Below are positions 2,107 through 16,499 of a DNA stretch of 64,000 nt, piece after piece. The position numbers were made by a program, and so were the translations under genes. Under the pieces are notes generated by a model. It was not told the origin of the DNA. It did not search any database and was given only the letters and a program-made list of their open reading frames with translations. The stretch lies in assembly GCF_001984105.1 (NCBI RefSeq), contig NZ_MTQM01000007.1, positions 186,001-250,000 on the forward strand, given 5' to 3'. The DNA is from Microbacterium sp. CSI-V. GTDB lineage: Bacteria; Actinomycetota; Actinomycetes; Actinomycetales; Microbacteriaceae. How positions within the stretch are numbered: the first letter of the stretch is position 1; each line of letters begins with the position of its first letter.

Positions 2107-5100
2107 CAGCTGCTCCTCAACGCGAAGCTGATCCGCTCACCAGCGATCCGCCCCACCTCTTCCTCAGACATACCCGGAGTGGGGTAGATCTTCATGTCGA
2201 TCGGACGCTGATCCGCGACCACTGCAGCAGCCGGAGCTCCACTGGACATGTAGGAGGCGATGTACTGCGGCCGGTGGTCTACGTACCCACCGCCCGCGTA
2301 CCCACGGAGCGGGGGCATGTCGCCGCCCGCGTTCATGTGCTCCAACCACGCCCGGTTGCGGGGCTTCGCCACCACCCGGGAACGGGTCACGAACTCACCA
2401 GTCGCGAGGGCGTACACGACGTTGTCCCGATCCGACGGTGCGCCAGGGATGATGCCACCACCAGCACGCCCACCACGGATGCTCGTCGCGTCGAGCGAAT
2501 CCGTCTGCGTGTTCAGCCGGATCGTCGTCCCGTTCCACTGGTTGTAGATCGCGGTGAGCTGAGCATTGACTCCCGAGGTGTCCACCTTCAGGTACGGCGT
2601 GACGTTCTCGATGCGGAGCTTGTACTCCCTCATGATCTGCTCGACCGTGGCCTGACCGCTGGCCAACTTGCCAGCGATCTCAGATGCGGCGCCCTGGCCG
2701 AGTTGCGCCGCCGCCGCCGCCACAATCGGTGACGCATTCGTCAGGGCGCTAGTGAAAGCATCCGTACCGCTCTTCGACCGCTCACCGAAAGCTTGCTCCA
2801 TCACGGCCAGCTGTTCATCGCTGGCATTTACCAGCTCCGCGACTAGAGGAGCACCCTCCGGGCCGAGAGATGCCAGCTCAGAAAGGACACCTTCCGATAC
2901 GCGGCCGGAAAGCAGAATCATGTTCTGCTCCCACGAGGTCTGAGCATCGATCTGTGTCTGCAACTCAGTGATGTAGTCGGCCAGATTGACCGAGAATCCG
3001 TCGTAGTAGTCCTTCCAGGAGTCAGAGGAATCCTCGGTCTTGGACGCGGTGTCCTCAGCCCACTCCCGCTGCTTGTCCTGCATTTTGGTTAGCGCGTCGC
3101 CGAAATTGATGAACTGCGAGTCCCCCCCGGAGAGGGTCTCCAGGTACTTCTTCTGCGCGTCGGTCAGCTCCTCGGTCGCCCCTGCCGCGGTCTCGGCCGC
3201 GCCAGCGATACCGCTCAACGAATCTGCACCCGTGTCGCTGGTTGAGGAAAGGTCAGACGTCGCGATCTCCAGGAGAGCAGATGCCCGCGCTGCGTCGTCC
3301 ATCCCGGCCGTGTTCAGCCCCAGCTCGGTAGCCCGCTTGGTGAGCACACCCTCGAACTCGGGTCCCAAGGCAGCGAGCAGCCGGGACAGCGATTTCTGCG
3401 AACCGTCGGTCTCGGCCGCGAGCTCGTTGAACGCCCTCTGCGCCGCCGGAGCGTCGGAAGCCGCGAGCGTCGACAGCTCCTTACCGATCCGCTGGAGCGA
3501 GTCGATGGGGGCCGCCAGAGCGGCATTCTTCTGCAGGTTGAAGATGCCGCGCGCGAAGATGTTGTTGTTGAACTCGTCGATGTCGGCGAGCAGCTGATCC
3601 AGGTCCTGGAGCTGAGCCTTCGCGTCCTTGAAGAACAGGTTGAACTGGCCCGGTGCGGCGGTGTCCAGCACCTGCCGGCCGGATGCCGTCTGCAGGGAAT
3701 TCTGCATCGATTCCGAGGTCGCCTCGGTCTCCTTCATGATGCGCTGGAACTCGCCCAGACCGATGCCGGCGACGATCAGTGCCGCACCCCACGGACCGTT
3801 CAGGAACGCCGCTGTGGCGCTCAGGGCCCTTCCTGTGCGGTTGATCCCGTTCGTGGTGAGTTCCGCCGCCCGAGCCACCCCCGGCATCTCGGATGCGCGG
3901 AGGATCGTGAGTTGCGCGTTGAAGGCCGCGATCTTCGGCACCGCGATCAGGAACGCCCCGCCCGCCAGTGCAGCCCCACCAGCGACGGTAGCGAGCAACG
4001 CCACCCCGAACTGGATACCCTCGGGAAGGTCGGAGAACCCCTTCGAAAGCGTGGTGACTGCCTCGGCCACAGCCTGAACGGCCGGGAGGAATGCCGACCC
4101 GTAGTCGATCGCGGCGTCCCGTGCGGCGTTCGCTGCGATCTGCAGCTTCGCCTCGGTCGTCTCGTACCGCTTGTTGGCCTCATCGGTCAGCGCGGAGTTC
4201 TCCTCCCACGCCTTCGACTGCAGGTCGAGCGAGTCGGTGAGGAGGTCCCCGGCACCCTTGAGCTGCAGCAGCACACGCTGCTCCTCGGTCGACTTGAACC
4301 CGAGGTCGGTGAGCGTCTTCACGACGTTCCCGCCCGACGCCTCGACCCCGTTCAGTCCCTTCGTGAACGTGTCGAGCGCGCGCACCGGGTCGTTCCGGAA
4401 CTGGTCCGCGAACTCCTTCGACGTGACCCCGGAGACCTTCGCGAACGCGGCGAGCTGGTCGCCTCCCGTCTGCACGGCCGAGTACAGGTCCTGGAGCACC
4501 CGGGAAGCGACGCCACCACCGAGCTCCGCTGTGATGCCCATCGAGGCGAGGGCGTTCGCGAGACCGAGGACTTCACCCTCGGTAGCGCCGACCAGCTTCC
4601 CGGAACCCGAGATGCGCTGCGCCATCTGGACGATGTCGCGCTCCGTTGAAGCCCCCGCGTTACCGAGCGCCACGAGGGTCGCGCCGAGCCGGCCGACGTC
4701 CTCGGGCGCGGTCTGCATGACGTTCATCAGCTGCGCGATGCTCGTAGCGGCTTCGTCAGCGGAGAGGTTCGTCGTCTCCGACAGGTCGATCATCGTCTTC
4801 GTGAACGAGGCGATGTCCTGCCGCTTCACACCGAGCTGACCGGCAGCTTCCGCGACTCCCGCGATCTCCTCATGGGTGGCGGGGAGCACACCGGTCAGCG
4901 ACCGGAGCTGCTCCTCGAGCGCGCCCATCTCCTCGGCGTTCCCGTCGACGGTCTTCGTGACCCCAGCCCACGCCGACTCCCAGTCGATCGCGGCCTTCAC
5001 CGACAGAGCCGTCGCAGCCGTCGCGATCGCACCGGTCGCGAGGAGCTTGGTGCCGACCTGCTCCATCGCCTGGTGCTGCCGCTCGTAGGCGGCCATGGCG

Positions 5101-11165: not shown

Positions 11166-13397
11166 TCAGATGAGCCCGAGAGCCCGCGCCAGACGCCGCA
11201 CAGACTCGGGTGTGCCGCGCTCCCCCAGCCGCCGTAACTCGCGCGCCAGATCACGCTCCAGCTCCGCGACCTTCGCCGCAGATGCCGGCAACGGTGAGGC
11301 GTACACGTCGGCGCTGCTGAGCCCGACACCGCGGGGGACGTTCCCGGTCGCCCGGACGTACTGGAGCCGGTAGTTCGCGTCGTACAGTCGCCGCTCCGCC
11401 GCGGTCATCGTCGCCCGGTTCAGCGGATCCCGCTGCCCGGATGCCGCAGCATCGAAGCGTGCGGCTCGGTTCGTGACGACCGTGCGTCCGCCGATCGTGA
11501 CCGTCCCACGCCCTCGACCCGCGGCGAGGATCTGCTGGTCAGTGCGGACACCCGGCGCCAGCGACACCGCAGTCTGGCCGCGGTCGAGGATGTACCCCTC
11601 CTGACGCATCAGCCGGATCGCGTTCGTCCGTGTCCCAGCCCGCCGGTAGATGTCATCCACCGTCAGCCGGGAAGGCGCCCCGTACCGTCGCGCGCCGGCC
11701 GCAGTCGCGAGGCCACGCTGCGAGACGTTCACGACACGGTAGATGTCGGCACCGTCCCGGATGGCACGCGCCTCACTGCGACCGAAGACCTTCTCCTGCT
11801 GCTGCTCCGACATCGCCTGGAACGTCGCGTACGGGTCTGTGCGCTCATCGCCGACGACGTTCTCCGCACCGGGGATGTGCATACAGTCGCAGTTAGATAC
11901 AATGAGACTGTTAGCTACGTGCCACCCTTCGGACGAATTGAGGCTGTACACATGCCCGGACCACTGAACGCTGCGCGCCTTGACCACGCGATCGAGCTCT
12001 ACCTGGCCGGTGAGCCGTTCGAGAAGATCACGACCGACGCTGGCGTATCCGCTAGCCGTCTCCACCGTGAACGAGTCGCCCGGGGCATCCCACCGCGACG
12101 GGAGAGGGTTCTGCCCGCCGAAACCATCGTCCGGCAGTACGTCGAAGGAGCCTCCGAGTACGGCTTGGCGCGACAGTATGGCGTCTCCCGAGGCCCCATC
12201 ACGCGCATCCTCACCGAGGCTGGAGTGCGGCGCCGCGGCATGAGCGAAGCGGGGAAGATCCGAAACGAATCGCTTACCGCTGACGAGAAACGCGCGCAGG
12301 TCCAGGCCGCCAACGCTGCCGCCCGCAAGCGTCGCATCCCGACGATCGAGAAGCTGCGCCGAGCGCTGACCGTCGAGCAGCAGGGTCGCACCGGGAGTCG
12401 CGGTGAGGAAGTGCTCCTGTCGATGCTGCGCGAGCGCGGACTCCAGCCCACCATCGAACGAGCCGTCGGCCCGTACAACGTCGACCTGGCCGTGCTGCCC
12501 GTCGCCGTGGAAGTCCTCGGAGGAGGATTCCACGCGAGCAAGGCCTCGCACGCTGAGCGCATCCCACACATCCTCGATGCGGGCTGGCACCTGGTCATGG
12601 TCTGGGACCACGACAGCGGCGGCGCCCTCGGAGCGGGTGCTGCGGACTACATAGTCACCTTCCTGGATGAGGTTCGCCGGAACCCACCCGCGACGTGTCA
12701 GTATCGGGTGATTTCCGGTGACGGGCAGCTCCTCGCCGCTCGCGGTCGTGAGGATCACGAGTTCCCCGTCGTACCAGCGTCGCGTAGCGCCCTCGGTAGC
12801 GGGACCTGAAACCACAACCCCAGCGGGGAAACAGCGCGGGTGACGCTGGAAGCCCGTGTTCCACCGGTACCAACGGCCCGCGAGGATCACGCACCGTCGG
12901 CACGAGGGCGGGTTCAGCATCCGCACGTACCCGGTGATGTCCGGGCGTTGCACGATGTCCGCGGAGTACACCTCACGCCGCGTGTCGGCCATGACCGTCA
13001 GCGACGTCATCGTGAGCCACCGGCGCCCGACCTGCAGGGCATCTACGGCGGAGGCCCCGCGGCTGACCGCGACCTTCGTCGTGATGACCGCCTCGTCCAG
13101 AAGCGTGCTCATCGACCGGCCGTCGGGAGCCGAAGACAGGAACACTGCCGGATCGAGCTCCCCCACCGGGCTGTCCGGCTGATTCGTCTCGGCGAGCACC
13201 GCGGCCGTGTACCCGACCGCGACGCCCACGGCTTCCGCTCGAGCGCCTTCGAGCGTCGACAGGATCCTCGGCTTCACCCGCGCCCAGGACGCGTCGAAGT
13301 CATCCCCCATCCGCGACCACTGCCGGCCCACGTCCGAAGCGGCCGCGACCGACAGCGCCTGCTGCTCGCGGTACTGGTCAGTTGCCGCCTGCAGCAC
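11166..13397 (-). CDS. MuF-type minor capsid protein with intein
   Basis: The 743-codon frame encodes a minor head protein interrupted by an intein. Residues 1-188 (N-extein) and 503-743 (C-extein) join to give 429 residues after splicing. Splicing restores the MuF signature RHPR|CDCMHIPG, preceded by CRRC and GRWYRW, typical of head morphogenesis proteins encoded next to the portal. The intein sits exactly before the conserved Cys. GTG 13397 overlaps the portal end by 20 bases. The C-extein continues with helical head-protein sequence and ends LARALGLI. A separate gene is nested on the opposite strand inside the intein. Confidence 0.88.
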   Translation of the reverse strand: MLQAATDQYREQQALSVAAASDVGRQWSRMGDDFDASWARVKPRILSTLEGARAEAVGVAVGYTAAVLAETNQPDSPVGELDPAVFLSSAPDGRSMSTLLDEAVITTKVAVSRGASAVDALQVGRRWLTMTSLTVMADTRREVYSADIVQRPDITGYVRMLNPPSCRRCVILAGRWYRWNTGFQRHPRCFPAGVVVSGPATEGATRRWYDGELVILTTASGEELPVTGNHPILTRRGWVPANLIQEGDYVVRSTRSEGAAAVVVPDHDQVPARIEDVWDALSVRGLARVESSSEDFHGDGQHGQVDVVRADGSFDGGLESALAQHRQEHFLTATPGATLLLDGQRSAQLLDRRDATLAGGSVGGLDLRAFLVSGKRFVSDLPRFAHAAAPHSSLGEDARDGASGDAILSRQAVLGGSFDVLPDDGFGGQNPLPSRWDAPGDSFTVETASGYASVGRDLLERLTGQVELDRVVKARSVQWSGHVYSLNSSEGWHVANSLIVSNCDCMHIPGAENVVGDERTDPYATFQAMSEQQQEKVFGRSEARAIRDGADIYRVVNVSQRGLATAAGARRYGAPSRLTVDDIYRRAGTRTNAIRLMRQEGYILDRGQTAVSLAPGVRTDQQILAAGRGRGTVTIGGRTVVTNRAARFDAAASGQRDPLNRATMTAAERRLYDANYRLQYVRATGNVPRGVGLSSADVYASPLPASAAKVAELERDLARELRRLGERGTPESVRRLARALGLI
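11898..11943 (+). promoter_or_regulatory. Promoter-like element and RBS for nested nuclease
   Basis: TACAAT (11898-11903) is a good -10 match inside the last intein codons. GAGG (11940-11943) lies 8 bases before the ATG at 11952. The stretch is visibly more AT-rich than its surroundings, and on the other strand it forces rare codons (ATT GTA TCT) in the intein C-terminus. A matching -35 box is not evident. Confidence 0.5.
11952..12809 (+). CDS. HTH + Vsr-like homing endonuclease nested in intein
   Basis: This 285-residue protein is encoded antisense to the intein and entirely within it. Residues 10-45 and 54-93 look like two helix-turn-helix units (EKITTDAGVSASRL; LARQYGVSRGPITRIL). Residues 149-225 have the core of a Vsr/EDxHD-type PD-(D/E)XK nuclease: E152/E153, YNVDLAV with D178, VAVEV with E187, GGFHASKASH, then ILDAGWHLVMVWD. 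ATG 11952 is favoured over the ATG at 11877 by its ribosome binding site. Codons align exactly with intein codons (residue k faces intein residue 295-k), so E187 is the reverse complement of intein F108. A homing role is inferred from location and domains. Confidence 0.72.
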   Translation: MPGPLNAARLDHAIELYLAGEPFEKITTDAGVSASRLHRERVARGIPPRRERVLPAETIVRQYVEGASEYGLARQYGVSRGPITRILTEAGVRRRGMSEAGKIRNESLTADEKRAQVQAANAAARKRRIPTIEKLRRALTVEQQGRTGSRGEEVLLSMLRERGLQPTIERAVGPYNVDLAVLPVAVEVLGGGFHASKASHAERIPHILDAGWHLVMVWDHDSGGALGAGAADYIVTFLDEVRRNPPATCQYRVISGDGQLLAARGREDHEFPVVPASRSALGSGT

Positions 13398-14763
13398 CCT
13401 GGACCGGCCTTCCCGCGGCCGCGATCTGCGGGTCCAGGGTCACGTTCTCATCCCAGTCCCGCATGCGGCCCTGCTCGATGTCCGTGTAGCCGAGGTCCTT
13501 CCGTGCCTGCTCGATCGGGAGGATCGAACGGCCCGTGGTGTCCTTCGTCGTGACGAGCTTCATGATCGCGTCGGCTTTCTGCGCCACCGTCGGGGTCGAC
13601 GGGTCACGCCAGATCGTCTCGATCTGCTTCGGGCGGGCGTCGACCTCTCGGCCCATGTTCATGAGCACGAGACGCTGCACCTGCTCCCACCGGGTTGACA
13701 GGGTCCGCTGCTTCCGCTCCGCACGCTTGACCAGCTGCGCCTCCGACGCGCGGATCGCGTCCGCCGAGGGCGGGTTGTCGCCCTTGAACAGCAGGTAGTC
13801 CGCGGGGATACCGAGTTGCATCGCGACGATCTGCATGAGCAGCTTGATGGACTCGTGGAAGTTAGACAGCGAAGCCTCGGGGAACTGCCCGAACGTGGCC
13901 TTGTCGTTCTCCGTCGACCACATGCGGCCGGCGATCATCGAGTACGTGTCGAGCGCCTGACCGGCCTCGTCGGTGAAGTCTTCCTCCTTGAGCCCGGTCG
14001 CGAAGCGCCGCGGCAGGGCATGGAACTCGGCCGACACCATCATGTCCGAGGCGAGCTTGTTCAGCGCGTCCAGAGGGCTGACGATCGGGTGGAACACGGA
14101 ACGTCCGAGCCGCTGGTCGAACTTCCCCGGCCGGTTACGACCCAGGATCCGCGGGTCGTTCATCAGGGGGACGAGCGAGCACAGGTTGTTCCCGTTGTCG
14201 TCCTCACGGTCATCCTCGACCCACCCGCGGCCCTGCTGGAACCGCCAGGTGACCCACCCGTTCTGGTGGTGGAACGTCATCCACCGGGTCTTGTCGAGAT
14301 CGGTCCACCGCTTCACGCCGTGCTTCACACGCTTCGTCTTCGGGTCGTCCTCGTGGATCGCGTCGAACGCGGACTCGAGCGTGATCACCGGAACGTCATC
14401 CGCGGCCTCACCGGGCCCCACGGTGGCGTAAGCGCGCCCCAGAGCGAGGCTCTCCCGGTGACCCTGCTGCGACAGGTCCGGGCCGTCGTTCTCCTGCCAC
14501 ACGTCCCACAGCTCGTCGTCGGCCTCGGCACCACGACCGATACGGAACCCTTCGACGTCGAGCCGGTTGTCGTACACGTCGACGGCGAACAGCGCCAGGT
14601 TCAGCACGATCGGCGACAGACGGTAGCCGAGCTCCTGCTGCAGCACCGGGGCGAGGAACTTCAACGGCTGCTCACCCTCGAAGTACAGGTCGTTCTTCTC
14701 GAGCATCGGCTTCTGCCGGCTGATCGCGCGGGACAGCCGCAGCGCCTCGTCGAGTTCCGTCAC
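13378..14763 (-). CDS. Portal protein (SPP1 gp6-like)
   Basis: The 461-residue protein has the size and pattern of the SPP1-type portal, the dodecameric ring through which DNA is packaged. Visible features are the N-terminal LYFEGEQPLKFL, the LSPIVLNLALFAVDVYDNRL segment, a conserved LMQIVAMQLGIPADYL helix and SADAIRASEAQLVKRAERKQ before the C-terminal stem. It begins at GTG 14763, just after the terminase nuclease region, and ends inside the MuF gene start. The C-terminal 30 residues are Gly/Ala-rich. Confidence 0.92.
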   Translation of the reverse strand: MTELDEALRLSRAISRQKPMLEKNDLYFEGEQPLKFLAPVLQQELGYRLSPIVLNLALFAVDVYDNRLDVEGFRIGRGAEADDELWDVWQENDGPDLSQQGHRESLALGRAYATVGPGEAADDVPVITLESAFDAIHEDDPKTKRVKHGVKRWTDLDKTRWMTFHHQNGWVTWRFQQGRGWVEDDREDDNGNNLCSLVPLMNDPRILGRNRPGKFDQRLGRSVFHPIVSPLDALNKLASDMMVSAEFHALPRRFATGLKEEDFTDEAGQALDTYSMIAGRMWSTENDKATFGQFPEASLSNFHESIKLLMQIVAMQLGIPADYLLFKGDNPPSADAIRASEAQLVKRAERKQRTLSTRWEQVQRLVLMNMGREVDARPKQIETIWRDPSTPTVAQKADAIMKLVTTKDTTGRSILPIEQARKDLGYTDIEQGRMRDWDENVTLDPQIAAAGRPVQGAAGGN

Positions 14764-14773
14764 GGCAGCTCTC

Positions 14774-15409
14774 CTATCTGCTGCGCCAGACGCGCACCTT
14801 CGCTCTCGGTTTCGGGGGCGACCAGCCAGCGGCGAGCGAGTCGCGCACCGCGGCGTTCGCGAGGATCGAGCACATCGCGAGGTCGATCTTCTGCGTCTCG
14901 TTCGGCTTCCCGAGGATGTACTTCTGACCGGGCTTCGCGACCTTCTTCGCGTTGCCCATGTGCAGCTCCGTGATGGGGCACCCGTCGTTCGTGATGCGCC
15001 CGTTCGCGAGGTCCGCCTCGAACCGGCGGATCTCGTCGTACATGCGGCTGACGGAGTTGGTGGGCCACTCGATCACGTGCTCATCGCCATGACGCAGCGC
15101 CCACGTCTCGATGTCGGTGTTCCAGTCCTCCGGGTCGCAGTACATGCGCACCACCACGAACCGGTCGAACAGCTCGTCGACGGCAACATCGACCTCGCTG
15201 TGCGGGATACGGTCGCCGTGCTCCTTCGGATCCCAGAACGTGGGGGTCTCGAGGTCCGGTCCCCACCGCGGGGTGAACGCATACCCGGTCATCGTCTGGG
15301 CGCGGATGCCGGTCCAGTCGTTGTTGATGCTGCCGTCTAACTAGAACCCGATGCAGATGGCAGTGCCATCCGGCGGGTTCGGCAACCACGGTCGCTTCGT
15401 CGCCTGCAT
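14774..15409 (-). pseudogene. Terminase large subunit nuclease part, interrupted by TAG
   Basis: A 212-codon frame starts at ATG 15409 with AGGAGG six bases upstream and is open to 14774 except for one amber codon (15343-15341). It begins MQATKRPWLP and reads CIGF, then TAG TTA, then DGSINNDW. Removing the six bases TAGTTA restores the RuvC-like nuclease motif GFDGS..NDW, whose Asp is catalytic. Later motifs are intact: YCDPEDWN and QKIDLAM. The part after the stop could start at ATG 15292, but that would lack the first catalytic Asp and has no good ribosome site. Readthrough would give a complete domain. Confidence 0.7.
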
Positions 15410-15440
15410 CGGGAACCTCCTCACCTGCCCGCAGGGGCAC

Positions 15441-16499
15441 TCATGCAACTACGCGCCCCAGCGAGGCGTACGCGCCTTCCCACACCCCTTCGGGCAGCCA
15501 CGTGCCCATACCGCGCACGAGCTTGTTCCCGTAGAACCGTTCCGCCTGCGCCGGGTCTTGCTCCAGCAACTCCGCGGCCTCAGCCTCGATCGAATCGAGG
15601 TCGACGTGCGCGGCACCGAAGTACACGAATGCGTGGATCTTCCGGCGGTCGCGCTTGTTCTTGTAGCTGAGGTTCTTCGGCGGCTGCCGGTAGAACTTGA
15701 ACAGGTCAGCCGCGCGCGACTCGTACGTCGACCGTGCGGTGGACTCCTCAGCGGGGTCCCACGTGTTCGTCAGCTCGATACCGCGGCCACCCATGCCAGA
15801 CGTGCCACGACGCATCGTCTGCGCCGTACCCATCAGCCCGTTCGACTTCGTGTAGATCCCCGTCTCGTCCTGAACGAATCCGGTGGTGGGGTTGCCCAGT
15901 CGGGACGACTCCGCAGAGGTGACCTTCTCGATCACGCCGTCATCGCCGATGCGCATGAATTTCTCACCCACACGGATGCGTTCGCTCAGCGGTCCCCGGA
16001 GGACCATCTGCTGCAGCGGACGCCACGTGTTGTTCACCTGATCCTCGGACGTCGCCATGAGCTGGATCAGCGGAGTCGGCCAGGGCATGCCCATCGGCTC
16101 GCCCGGCTCGTACTCGTACACGAACCCGCACTGACAGCCGTACCGCGCGCAGTCGTAGACGTCATCGTCGCCCGCCCACCCGGCGAACAGGTCCGGGCCA
16201 AGCGCCATCACCGCAGTCTCGGCCGCAGCCCACGGGCTCTTCCCGTACTTCTGCGGACCCACCACGAGAGAACGCCGGTACGCGAACGCCTGGTTCTTGA
16301 TCGGGTCCTCGGGGCGCCACGGCGTCTCCGGGCGCACTCGACCGTGGTTCGCGGTGCACCACAGCTGCCAGTCCGACAGGATGAACGGCTGCCCCTTCCG
16401 GAACCCATCAGGGATCGGAAGATGCCACGCCATCCAGTCCGCCTGCAGGTAACCCAGCGTCGGCCACGTGACCTCGAACTCAGCGATCTGCTCCGACAT
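15441..16499 (-). CDS. Terminase large subunit, ATPase part
   Basis: The 352-residue protein carries the packaging ATPase of TerL: Walker A-like GPQKYGKSPWA near residue 80, Walker B FVQDE near residue 210, and the C-terminal linker KLVRGMGTWLPEGVWEGAY that normally leads into the nuclease domain. It stops at TGA 15443-15441, 31 bases before the ATG of the separate nuclease frame, which has its own ribosome site, so the terminase may be naturally split in two genes. It overlaps the TerS gene by 20 bases at its start. Confidence 0.85.
   Translation of the reverse strand: MSEQIAEFEVTWPTLGYLQADWMAWHLPIPDGFRKGQPFILSDWQLWCTANHGRVRPETPWRPEDPIKNQAFAYRRSLVVGPQKYGKSPWAAAETAVMALGPDLFAGWAGDDDVYDCARYGCQCGFVYEYEPGEPMGMPWPTPLIQLMATSEDQVNNTWRPLQQMVLRGPLSERIRVGEKFMRIGDDGVIEKVTSAESSRLGNPTTGFVQDETGIYTKSNGLMGTAQTMRRGTSGMGGRGIELTNTWDPAEESTARSTYESRAADLFKFYRQPPKNLSYKNKRDRRKIHAFVYFGAAHVDLDSIEAEAAELLEQDPAQAERFYGNKLVRGMGTWLPEGVWEGAYASLGRVVA

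Follow-up and report, generated by a model that had tools for sequence, protein, structure and literature searches.

In homing inteins of the LAGLIDADG and HNH kinds, such as the Mtu RecA intein, the splicing and endonuclease domains belong to a single polypeptide. Another arrangement, the fractured genes, was reportedly described by Dassa et al. in 2009, who are also said to have introduced the I-Bth0305I family: there the intein is split, and a free-standing endonuclease gene lies between its halves. To our knowledge, the endonuclease of known homing inteins is either found in the spliced polypeptide or encoded beside a split intein. Here we consider a locus in a stretch of 64,000 nucleotides from Microbacterium sp. 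CSI-V (contig NZ_MTQM01000007.1, positions 186,001–250,000; hereinafter the window, with positions counted from its first letter), where an intein in a MuF-like phage protein is encoded on the minus strand and a predicted endonuclease gene on the plus strand of the same DNA. It shares with the LAGLIDADG and HNH homing inteins the splicing blocks, precise insertion at a conserved residue, presence/absence polymorphism and a nested endonuclease, but the latter is a separate, opposite-strand protein, and the intein's own middle is predicted to be disordered. Like the fractured genes, it combines splicing halves with a separate endonuclease gene, whereas this gene lies opposite the intein codons and not between the halves of a split intein.

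The predicted nuclease resembles the I-Bth0305I, Vsr, DUF559 and MTES_1575 nucleases in the catalytic fold and the helix-turn-helix (HTH) DNA-binding part, and differs from the EDxHD/Vsr-like enzymes in that the positions corresponding to L189 and H194 are variable. We know of no EDxHD/Vsr-like nuclease that shares codons with an intein. I-Bth0305I is a multi-domain, dimerising enzyme with a target of about 60 bp (PMC3943268). The ShiLan domain, which occurs in insertions in phage methylases, is an HNH endonuclease hidden in another reading frame, and no splicing domain was detected in that case (PMC11855218). It is, similarly, a mobile insertion in actinobacteriophages with an endonuclease in a frame other than that of the host protein, but it is encoded on the same strand, belongs to the HNH type and has no detected splicing domain, while here we have the opposite strand, an exact register and an intein. 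In Porphyra, group I introns carry an endonuclease gene on the complementary strand, in a peripheral extension (PMC2585584); this again is a self-splicing element with an opposite-strand endonuclease gene, but the splicing element is RNA and no protein codons are shared. PMC11855218 cites the 2025 preprint of Gosselin et al. (10.1101/2025.01.02.630785) for overlapping frames in actinobacteriophages. As Gordonia phages with the element fall into the likely scope of the latter work, it is quite possible that the antisense arrangement has already been described there, the title speaking of a non-canonical architecture. Among open-licence PMC papers, bioRxiv being outside this scope, no title or abstract on an antisense endonuclease inside an intein was found. 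Known already are inteins, the Vsr/EDxHD homing enzymes, complementary-strand endonuclease genes in RNA introns, and a same-strand out-of-frame endonuclease. We regard the present element as a variant of the homing intein: scans of the intein polypeptide with the Pfam, PHROG and NCBIfam collections yielded no endonuclease domain family, and yet the element very likely works like a homing intein.

We consider it highly probable that the locus is a phage MuF homing intein with a predicted endonuclease encoded antisense, in exact codon register, and likely spreading the intein by homing. The host open reading frame (ORF) of 743 codons (11166–13397, minus strand) encodes a MuF-like head maturation or minor capsid protein (phrog_1522, E = 1.7e-79). 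It consists of the N-extein (12834–13397), the intein of 314 codons from Cys1 to Asn314 (11892–12833) and the C-extein starting with Cys+1 (11166–11891). The nuclease gene occupies 11952–12809 of the plus strand (an ATG start, 285 codons and TGA). Throughout the 285 codons of the nuclease, codon k is the reverse complement of intein codon 295-k. Thus the two lengths, the coordinates and the codon-exact register proposed in the first-pass annotation, made from the letters alone, are confirmed. The same register places, as had been claimed, the codon of the catalytic-type D178 (12483–12485, plus) opposite intein V117 and that of E187 (12510–12512, plus) opposite F108 of the intein DFHGD motif; both residues are invariant in 88 aligned representatives.

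In this register, antisense stops arise only from the codons TTA, CTA and TCA. Given the extein codon usage, the overlapping stretches of 89 non-redundant loci should contain 571 such codons, including 399 in the 32 loci with GC content below 55%, and none is observed; this zero is partly by construction, as every stretch counted belongs to a single open frame and nuclease similarity served to find most of the loci. A second set was collected by the first 66 intein residues alone (the best 80 of at least 563 relatives) and hence is free of both biases, that of the open frame and that of nuclease similarity. All 80 intein-first loci, 55 of which are new and non-redundant, have an opposite-strand match to the nuclease hidden Markov model (HMM), and the 80 intein bodies, 17,600 codons in total, contain no antisense stop. 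The body was defined as the region from residue 30 to 25 residues before block F or its stand-in; one body is short (L209, 68 codons). Stops flagged by a cruder rule in 31 of the 80 loci fall either at residues 10–15 or 24, the place of the nuclease's own stop, or at residues 264–361, near the C-terminal end of the intein. No MuF-site inteins without the nuclease were seen among these best 80 of at least 563 relatives.

Synonymous codon shuffles that preserve the intein never reproduce the nuclease: the real nuclease HMM score exceeds those of 100 out of 100 shuffles in each of the 89 loci. The same holds for 63 out of 63 out-of-sample loci, those with less than 45% identity to any HMM member, where the mean score is 175 bits for the real sequences vs 54 for the shuffled ones. 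In the reciprocal experiment, with the nuclease kept and 50 permutations, the intein score drops in 89/89 loci, and in 53/53 out of sample. Because inteins of this same family went into the intein HMM, its matches do not count as evidence independent of the nuclease; independent evidence comes from the splicing blocks, the host reading frame and the empty sites. In the stop count of the 89 loci, the intein-preserving shuffles, the register count and the selection estimates, the reversed-locus region ends one base short, costing at most one codon per locus and leaving the frames unaffected.

Overlap-aware substitution rates were estimated in 12 pooled close pairs out of 13 (L097/L122 was left out), with each change classed as silent or not in each frame. 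The rates per site are 0.309 for changes silent in both frames, 0.069 for changes affecting the nuclease only, 0.121 for the intein only, and 0.033 for both. The resulting ω is 0.22 (95% interval 0.17–0.30) for the nuclease and 0.39 (0.31–0.52) for the intein; hence both members of this overlapping antisense pair are under purifying selection. In the extein control, comprising 11 of the 12 pairs (L003/L004 was excluded, its extein identity of 0.695 being below the cut-off of 0.70), an imaginary antisense frame has ω of 1.01 (0.84–1.24), and the extein itself, 0.20. The constraint is divided unevenly along the element. In a middle stretch somewhat longer than intein residues 118–258, ω is 0.19 for the nuclease vs 0.50 for the intein; in the N block the respective values are 0.22 and 0.17, and in the C block, 0.47 and 0.21. 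The shift between the middle and the end blocks is significant (Fisher p = 8e-10 on changes). It thus seems to be chiefly the nuclease that constrains the middle, with the intein weighing relatively more in the splicing blocks at either end; the long middle of the intein would then be essentially the reverse side of the nuclease gene. The first-pass annotation had argued that neither frame is a chance shadow of the other, suggested an overlap-aware selection test, and named inteins with stops in the plus frame, or nuclease motifs free of purifying selection, as the observations that would count against it. The selection test found the nuclease frame constrained, the intein-first bodies are free of stops, and the stop counts, shuffles and selection all agree. 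With the register, they also support its view of a splicing element on one strand and a predicted mobility enzyme on the other.

The nuclease starts with a tandem HTH DNA-binding part (residues 1–96; 11952–12239, plus), identified by HTH_58 slightly under the cut-off and by helices in the AlphaFold2 (AF2) model; HTH models match up to 16 of 28 homologues. The Vsr/EDxHD-type catalytic domain spans residues 147–265 (12390–12746, plus). Its predicted fold is that of Vsr and of the homing endonuclease I-Bth0305I, and the top Foldseek match of the nuclease model is a homing endonuclease. The match came from the profile and the model, a PDB search with the nuclease sequence alone having produced nothing useful. 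In addition to D178 and E187, N176 is invariant in the 88 aligned representatives, and E152 is present in 84. The best-conserved residues of the intein middle are F108 (80 of 88), H109 (81), G110 (86) and D111 (85), lying opposite nuclease residues V184-A185-V186-E187, the strand that bears the catalytic-type Glu; intein V117, V119 and V120 lie opposite D178, N176 and Y175. Neither F108–D111 nor V117/V119/V120 forms a splicing motif of any intein block known to us, and we read the conservation of the DFHGD region and of V117–V120 as a reflection of the nuclease active site on the other strand. The conserved nuclease YRV segment near residue 251 is opposite intein block B.

The start signals of the nuclease are situated within the splicing motifs. 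The ATG (11952–11954, plus) is opposite the His codon CAT of block F (motif HVYNL), a Shine-Dalgarno sequence GAGG (11940–11943, plus) is also within block F, and a -10-like box TACAAT (11898–11903, plus) is formed by the last codons of the intein. The nuclease alignment reaches residue 1 in 38 of the 89 representatives, and all 38 have a start codon, ATG in 33 cases and GTG in five; a Shine-Dalgarno-like four-mer is observed upstream in 30 of them. Since block F demands His or Tyr at the start position, and His always yields ATG or GTG on the opposite strand, information comes only from the preference for CAT over CAC and from the use of CTC for Leu. Both were assessed in the 65 loci where block F could be recognised. 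CAT, producing ATG, is the His codon in 41 of 53 cases (21.3 expected), and the Leu codon is CTC, producing GAG of the Shine-Dalgarno sequence, in 53 of 65 (14.5 expected, z = 12.5). The latter preference extends to AT-rich phages that hardly use CTC elsewhere.

For the -10 box, C-terminal intein codons from 86 of the 89 loci were aligned and codons were resampled from the extein usage. At least five of six matches to TATAAT are found in the last codons of 49/86 inteins, with 13.7 expected (standard deviation 2.5); the perfect TATAAT, in 15 (1.6 expected); and the TG-extended -10, in 23 (2.2 expected). Elsewhere, 2.8% of 24-nucleotide segments in the extein and 4.4% in the rest of the intein reach the -10 criterion. 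The excess is present in loci with GC content of 60% or more (28/47 vs 3.4 expected), and the excess of A/T-ending codons is strongest at the -10 itself (z = 9.9 and 7.5). Extended -10 promoters function without a -35 element; here the latter would fall into the host gene, and an extended -10 needs none, so the promoter would be portable. A sigma-70 scan of four relatives found plus-strand sites in three (L066, L091, L092), in numbers near those in shuffles except for L066, Haemophilus phage Aaphi23, with seven sites vs 2.7. In this phage, an extended -10 (TG plus perfect TATAAT; 2945–2972, plus) lies inside the intein directly upstream of the nuclease and ends 28 bp before its start. A guess made in the first-pass annotation, that a plus-strand transcript starts at about 11910, fits the box at 11898–11903, whose use as a promoter is predicted.

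The arrangement is widespread. A search with the nuclease (E up to 1e-3) produced 168 homologues, of which the best 120 were listed; the closest among the matches listed is 75% identical, and many of the named ones are labelled very-short-patch-repair endonucleases. The intein has 58 homologues, the full-length matches being MuF-type proteins, and all 19 members of the intein alignment match head-protein PHROGs. In separate scans, 45 viral contigs were matched by the nuclease and 19 by the intein, in the same kind of place, as were 124 and 123 named phage records, respectively, half of them from Salmonella, followed by Gordonia, Pseudomonas, Klebsiella, Escherichia, Vibrio and others. A scan of bacterial genomes added 14 contigs from Actinomycetes, Chloroflexi, a Firmicutes, the PVC group and a Rhizobium genome. 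We fetched 134 loci, duplicates included; the first 115 gave the non-redundant set of 89. In 132 of the 134, the two frames overlap on opposite strands in register 0. In the intein-first set, L198 and L203 have a shorter intein (about 191 residues) and a correspondingly shorter antisense nuclease frame.

The remaining two loci lack the intein frame. In Acinetobacter phage P1068 (L092), the nuclease gene (2321–3214) is free-standing and its stop codon overlaps that of a MuF gene which seems to be complete; L117 has a 97% identical nuclease. The L092 nuclease, with 13 protein relatives found, retains a recognisable C-terminal segment. It may be an escapee from the intein rather than an ancestor, or it could be the older form; its position beside MuF fits a homing gene adjoining its own target.

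The annotation of such loci varies. In Salmonella phage vB_StyS-sam (L081), two small hypothetical proteins are annotated within the intein (3018–3266 and 3194–3595), the one on the nuclease strand probably being a fragment of the antisense gene; records PK1 and PK2 likewise have two annotated proteins there. In P0087 (Micromonospora carbonacea) and P0111 (Streptomyces phaeochromogenes) it is the nuclease-frame protein that is annotated, as a very-short-patch-repair endonuclease and a hypothetical protein, and the annotation may have dropped the MuF-intein frame. In Vibrio phage 1.266.O (MG592631.1, H212), a feature named "hint domain protein" covers the C-extein part of a MuF-like gene, and may represent a further intein inserted at this site, whether or not a nuclease accompanies it.

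Intein-less alleles exist. The joined exteins of the window align without gaps and with 100% identity over 130 residues to the faecal phage scaffold MT836167.1 (L135), whose DNA lacks 942 bp, exactly the intein length, the border being ambiguous by one base; identity to the window is 94.9% over 2.5 kb of one flank and 96.2% over 0.9 kb of the other. Similarly, GRNsp50 lacks 816 bp, the length of the intein in L081. For the Salmonella type, 1,110 of 1,464 matching phage records align to 80% or more of a 130-residue joined query at a single location, and most likely are intein-less. In several pairs the intein is more similar than its surroundings: 96.3% vs 74.2% for the extein in L096/L121 (an Escherichia and a Salmonella phage); 99.2% vs 88.2% in L122/L124, where the high identity includes about 60 bp of the upstream flank; and 99.4% vs 71.4% in L030/L031, where identity drops at the upstream border only, the downstream flank being near-identical too. 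The jump is mild in L065/L100 and partial in L003/L004. Some of these pairs look like recent intein transfer. Intein-limited identity of this sort would be expected from homing with co-conversion, and ordinary recombination is possible for individual pairs.

These data bear on the best of the alternatives, that the antisense gene is real but its product is not a homing enzyme, serving, for instance, to exclude rival phages or to restrict DNA that enters the cell, the intein merely being carried along. The catalytic fold is common to restriction and repair enzymes, and the cleavage target is only predicted. However, the gene is almost wholly within the intein in 132/134 loci, the intein-less allele lacks both frames, in some pairs the blocks of identity stop exactly at the intein borders or close to them, and the closest structural match is a homing endonuclease. 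Moreover, cutting intein-less rivals would itself be exclusion, so the two explanations overlap. We consider this one unlikely.

Even less probable is that splicing has been lost, the element being a nuclease-bearing insertion tolerated in MuF. It is favoured by Ser before the last Asn in the window and in 40 of the 87 representatives with readable ends (another 40 have His). Against it stand the constraint on the intein in its splicing blocks and the conservation of splicing residues. The window intein has Cys1, TGNHP, GHVYSL and Asn314 followed by Cys+1, and is matched by the Pfam Intein_splicing family (PF14890, E = 2.3e-5, under the curated cut-off); weak NCBIfam matches are to intein regions or to models of intein-bearing proteins. 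The N-terminal splicing blocks (residues 1–66; 12636–12833, minus) are opposite the nuclease C-terminus, have AF2 local confidence (pLDDT) of 69–93 in blocks of ten, and account for the N-block ω, calculated for the first 65 codons. Blocks F and G occupy residues 269–314 (11892–12029, minus). Block B has the TxxH signature (H42 in 88/88, T39 in 86/88), G23 and G49 are also invariant in the 88, and Cys1 is present in 81/81 aligned sequences. The ends are those of class 1 inteins: among the 87, the first residue is Cys in 76, the last is Asn in 86, and the +1 residue is Cys in 85; the non-Cys first residues look like misplaced HMM starts. As active inteins without the penultimate His exist, Ser at this position does not exclude class 1 membership. 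The fold is that of Hint domains, Foldseek ranks 1–24 all being inteins with probability of about 1 for most and the best E of 1.1e-3; the template modelling scores are low because only the ends are ordered, whereas the middle (residues 118–258; 12060–12482, minus), the mirror of the nuclease gene, is predicted to be disordered (pLDDT below 50).

Finally, that the plus frame is an ORF arising by chance antisense to GC-rich coding sequence, and conserved only through the intein, has a negligible probability and was rejected: stop-generating codons are indeed rare at 68% GC, but AT-rich phages and the intein-first bodies also stay open, no intein-preserving shuffle equals the real nuclease score, the nuclease frame is constrained where the extein control is not, and L092 and L117 have a nuclease without the intein frame.

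Several observations weigh against the antisense homing intein as described here. In the nuclease, His194 is present in only 61 of the 88 representatives, so that the full EDxHD motif is not established. In the intein, the window has Ser and not His before the last Asn, and the mean pLDDT is 55. The two AF2 models were built from 28 and 19 sequences with global scores (pTM) of 0.54 and 0.51, and none of the Foldseek matches reaches E of 0.001. The intervals of ω for the two frames overlap within the N block alone and within the C block alone, few sites are synonymous in both frames (158, with 49 changes), and the pairs are not all independent, some of them sharing branches. The excess of A/T-ending codons spans most of the last 12 codons of the intein and not the -10 alone, so part of the -10 excess may be due to general AT-richness; the window box has no TG extension; and no -35 element was seen, the sigma-70 scan of 11400–13400 being empty. 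In three of the eight profiled pairs (L006/L052, L086/L125, L084/L118) identity does not change abruptly where the intein begins or ends; the absence of a jump in the latter two means that double coding alone does not make an intein look younger.

If the element is indeed a homing intein with an antisense endonuclease, it might operate as follows. The MuF protein would splice the intein out. A plus-strand promoter with its -10 in the last intein codons would produce a short leader with the Shine-Dalgarno sequence in block F. The predicted nuclease would bind, via its HTH modules, the conserved MuF sequence at the insertion point and cut intein-less MuF copies during co-infection, and repair of the cut would copy the intein in. 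The carrier would be spared, as its target is split by the insertion.

The adjoining minus-strand genes match the portal, terminase, scaffold, decoration and major head families, so the locus is a phage structural module. The matches to the terminase large subunit are split over two ORFs (15441–16499 and 14774–15292, together 14774–16499, minus) in different frames with an in-frame stop between them; hence the prophage terminase looks interrupted. A nuclease search found a single copy in the 3.7-Mb genome, and in IMG/VR the element is present on a 46-kb contig. In the Jersey-like Salmonella phages, with or without the intein, an opposite-strand gene annotated as amidase or hypothetical protein is located upstream of MuF (4720–5373 in L081, from 3128 in L119, 1656–2306 in L136).

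In a broader sense, the locus probably represents full bidirectional coding in nature, both ancient and widespread, where an intein and a homing endonuclease of unrelated folds share about 285 codons, and the splicing motifs double as the promoter (block G) and the Shine-Dalgarno sequence and start (block F) of the nuclease. This would be a self-contained cassette whose strands are unable to evolve apart, and a living model of two enzymes from opposite strands. If so, the best-kept non-splicing motif of the intein, DFHGD, would owe its conservation to the nuclease active site encoded opposite it. The annotation of such inteins would change, as in the viewed rows of the 124 phage records matched by the nuclease the product is a head, structural or hypothetical protein and never a nuclease. 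The family would provide a well-powered test bed for double-strand coding and for the theory of overlap-aware selection. The Rodin–Ohno idea, which is said to derive two enzyme classes from opposite strands, would become testable on a living system.

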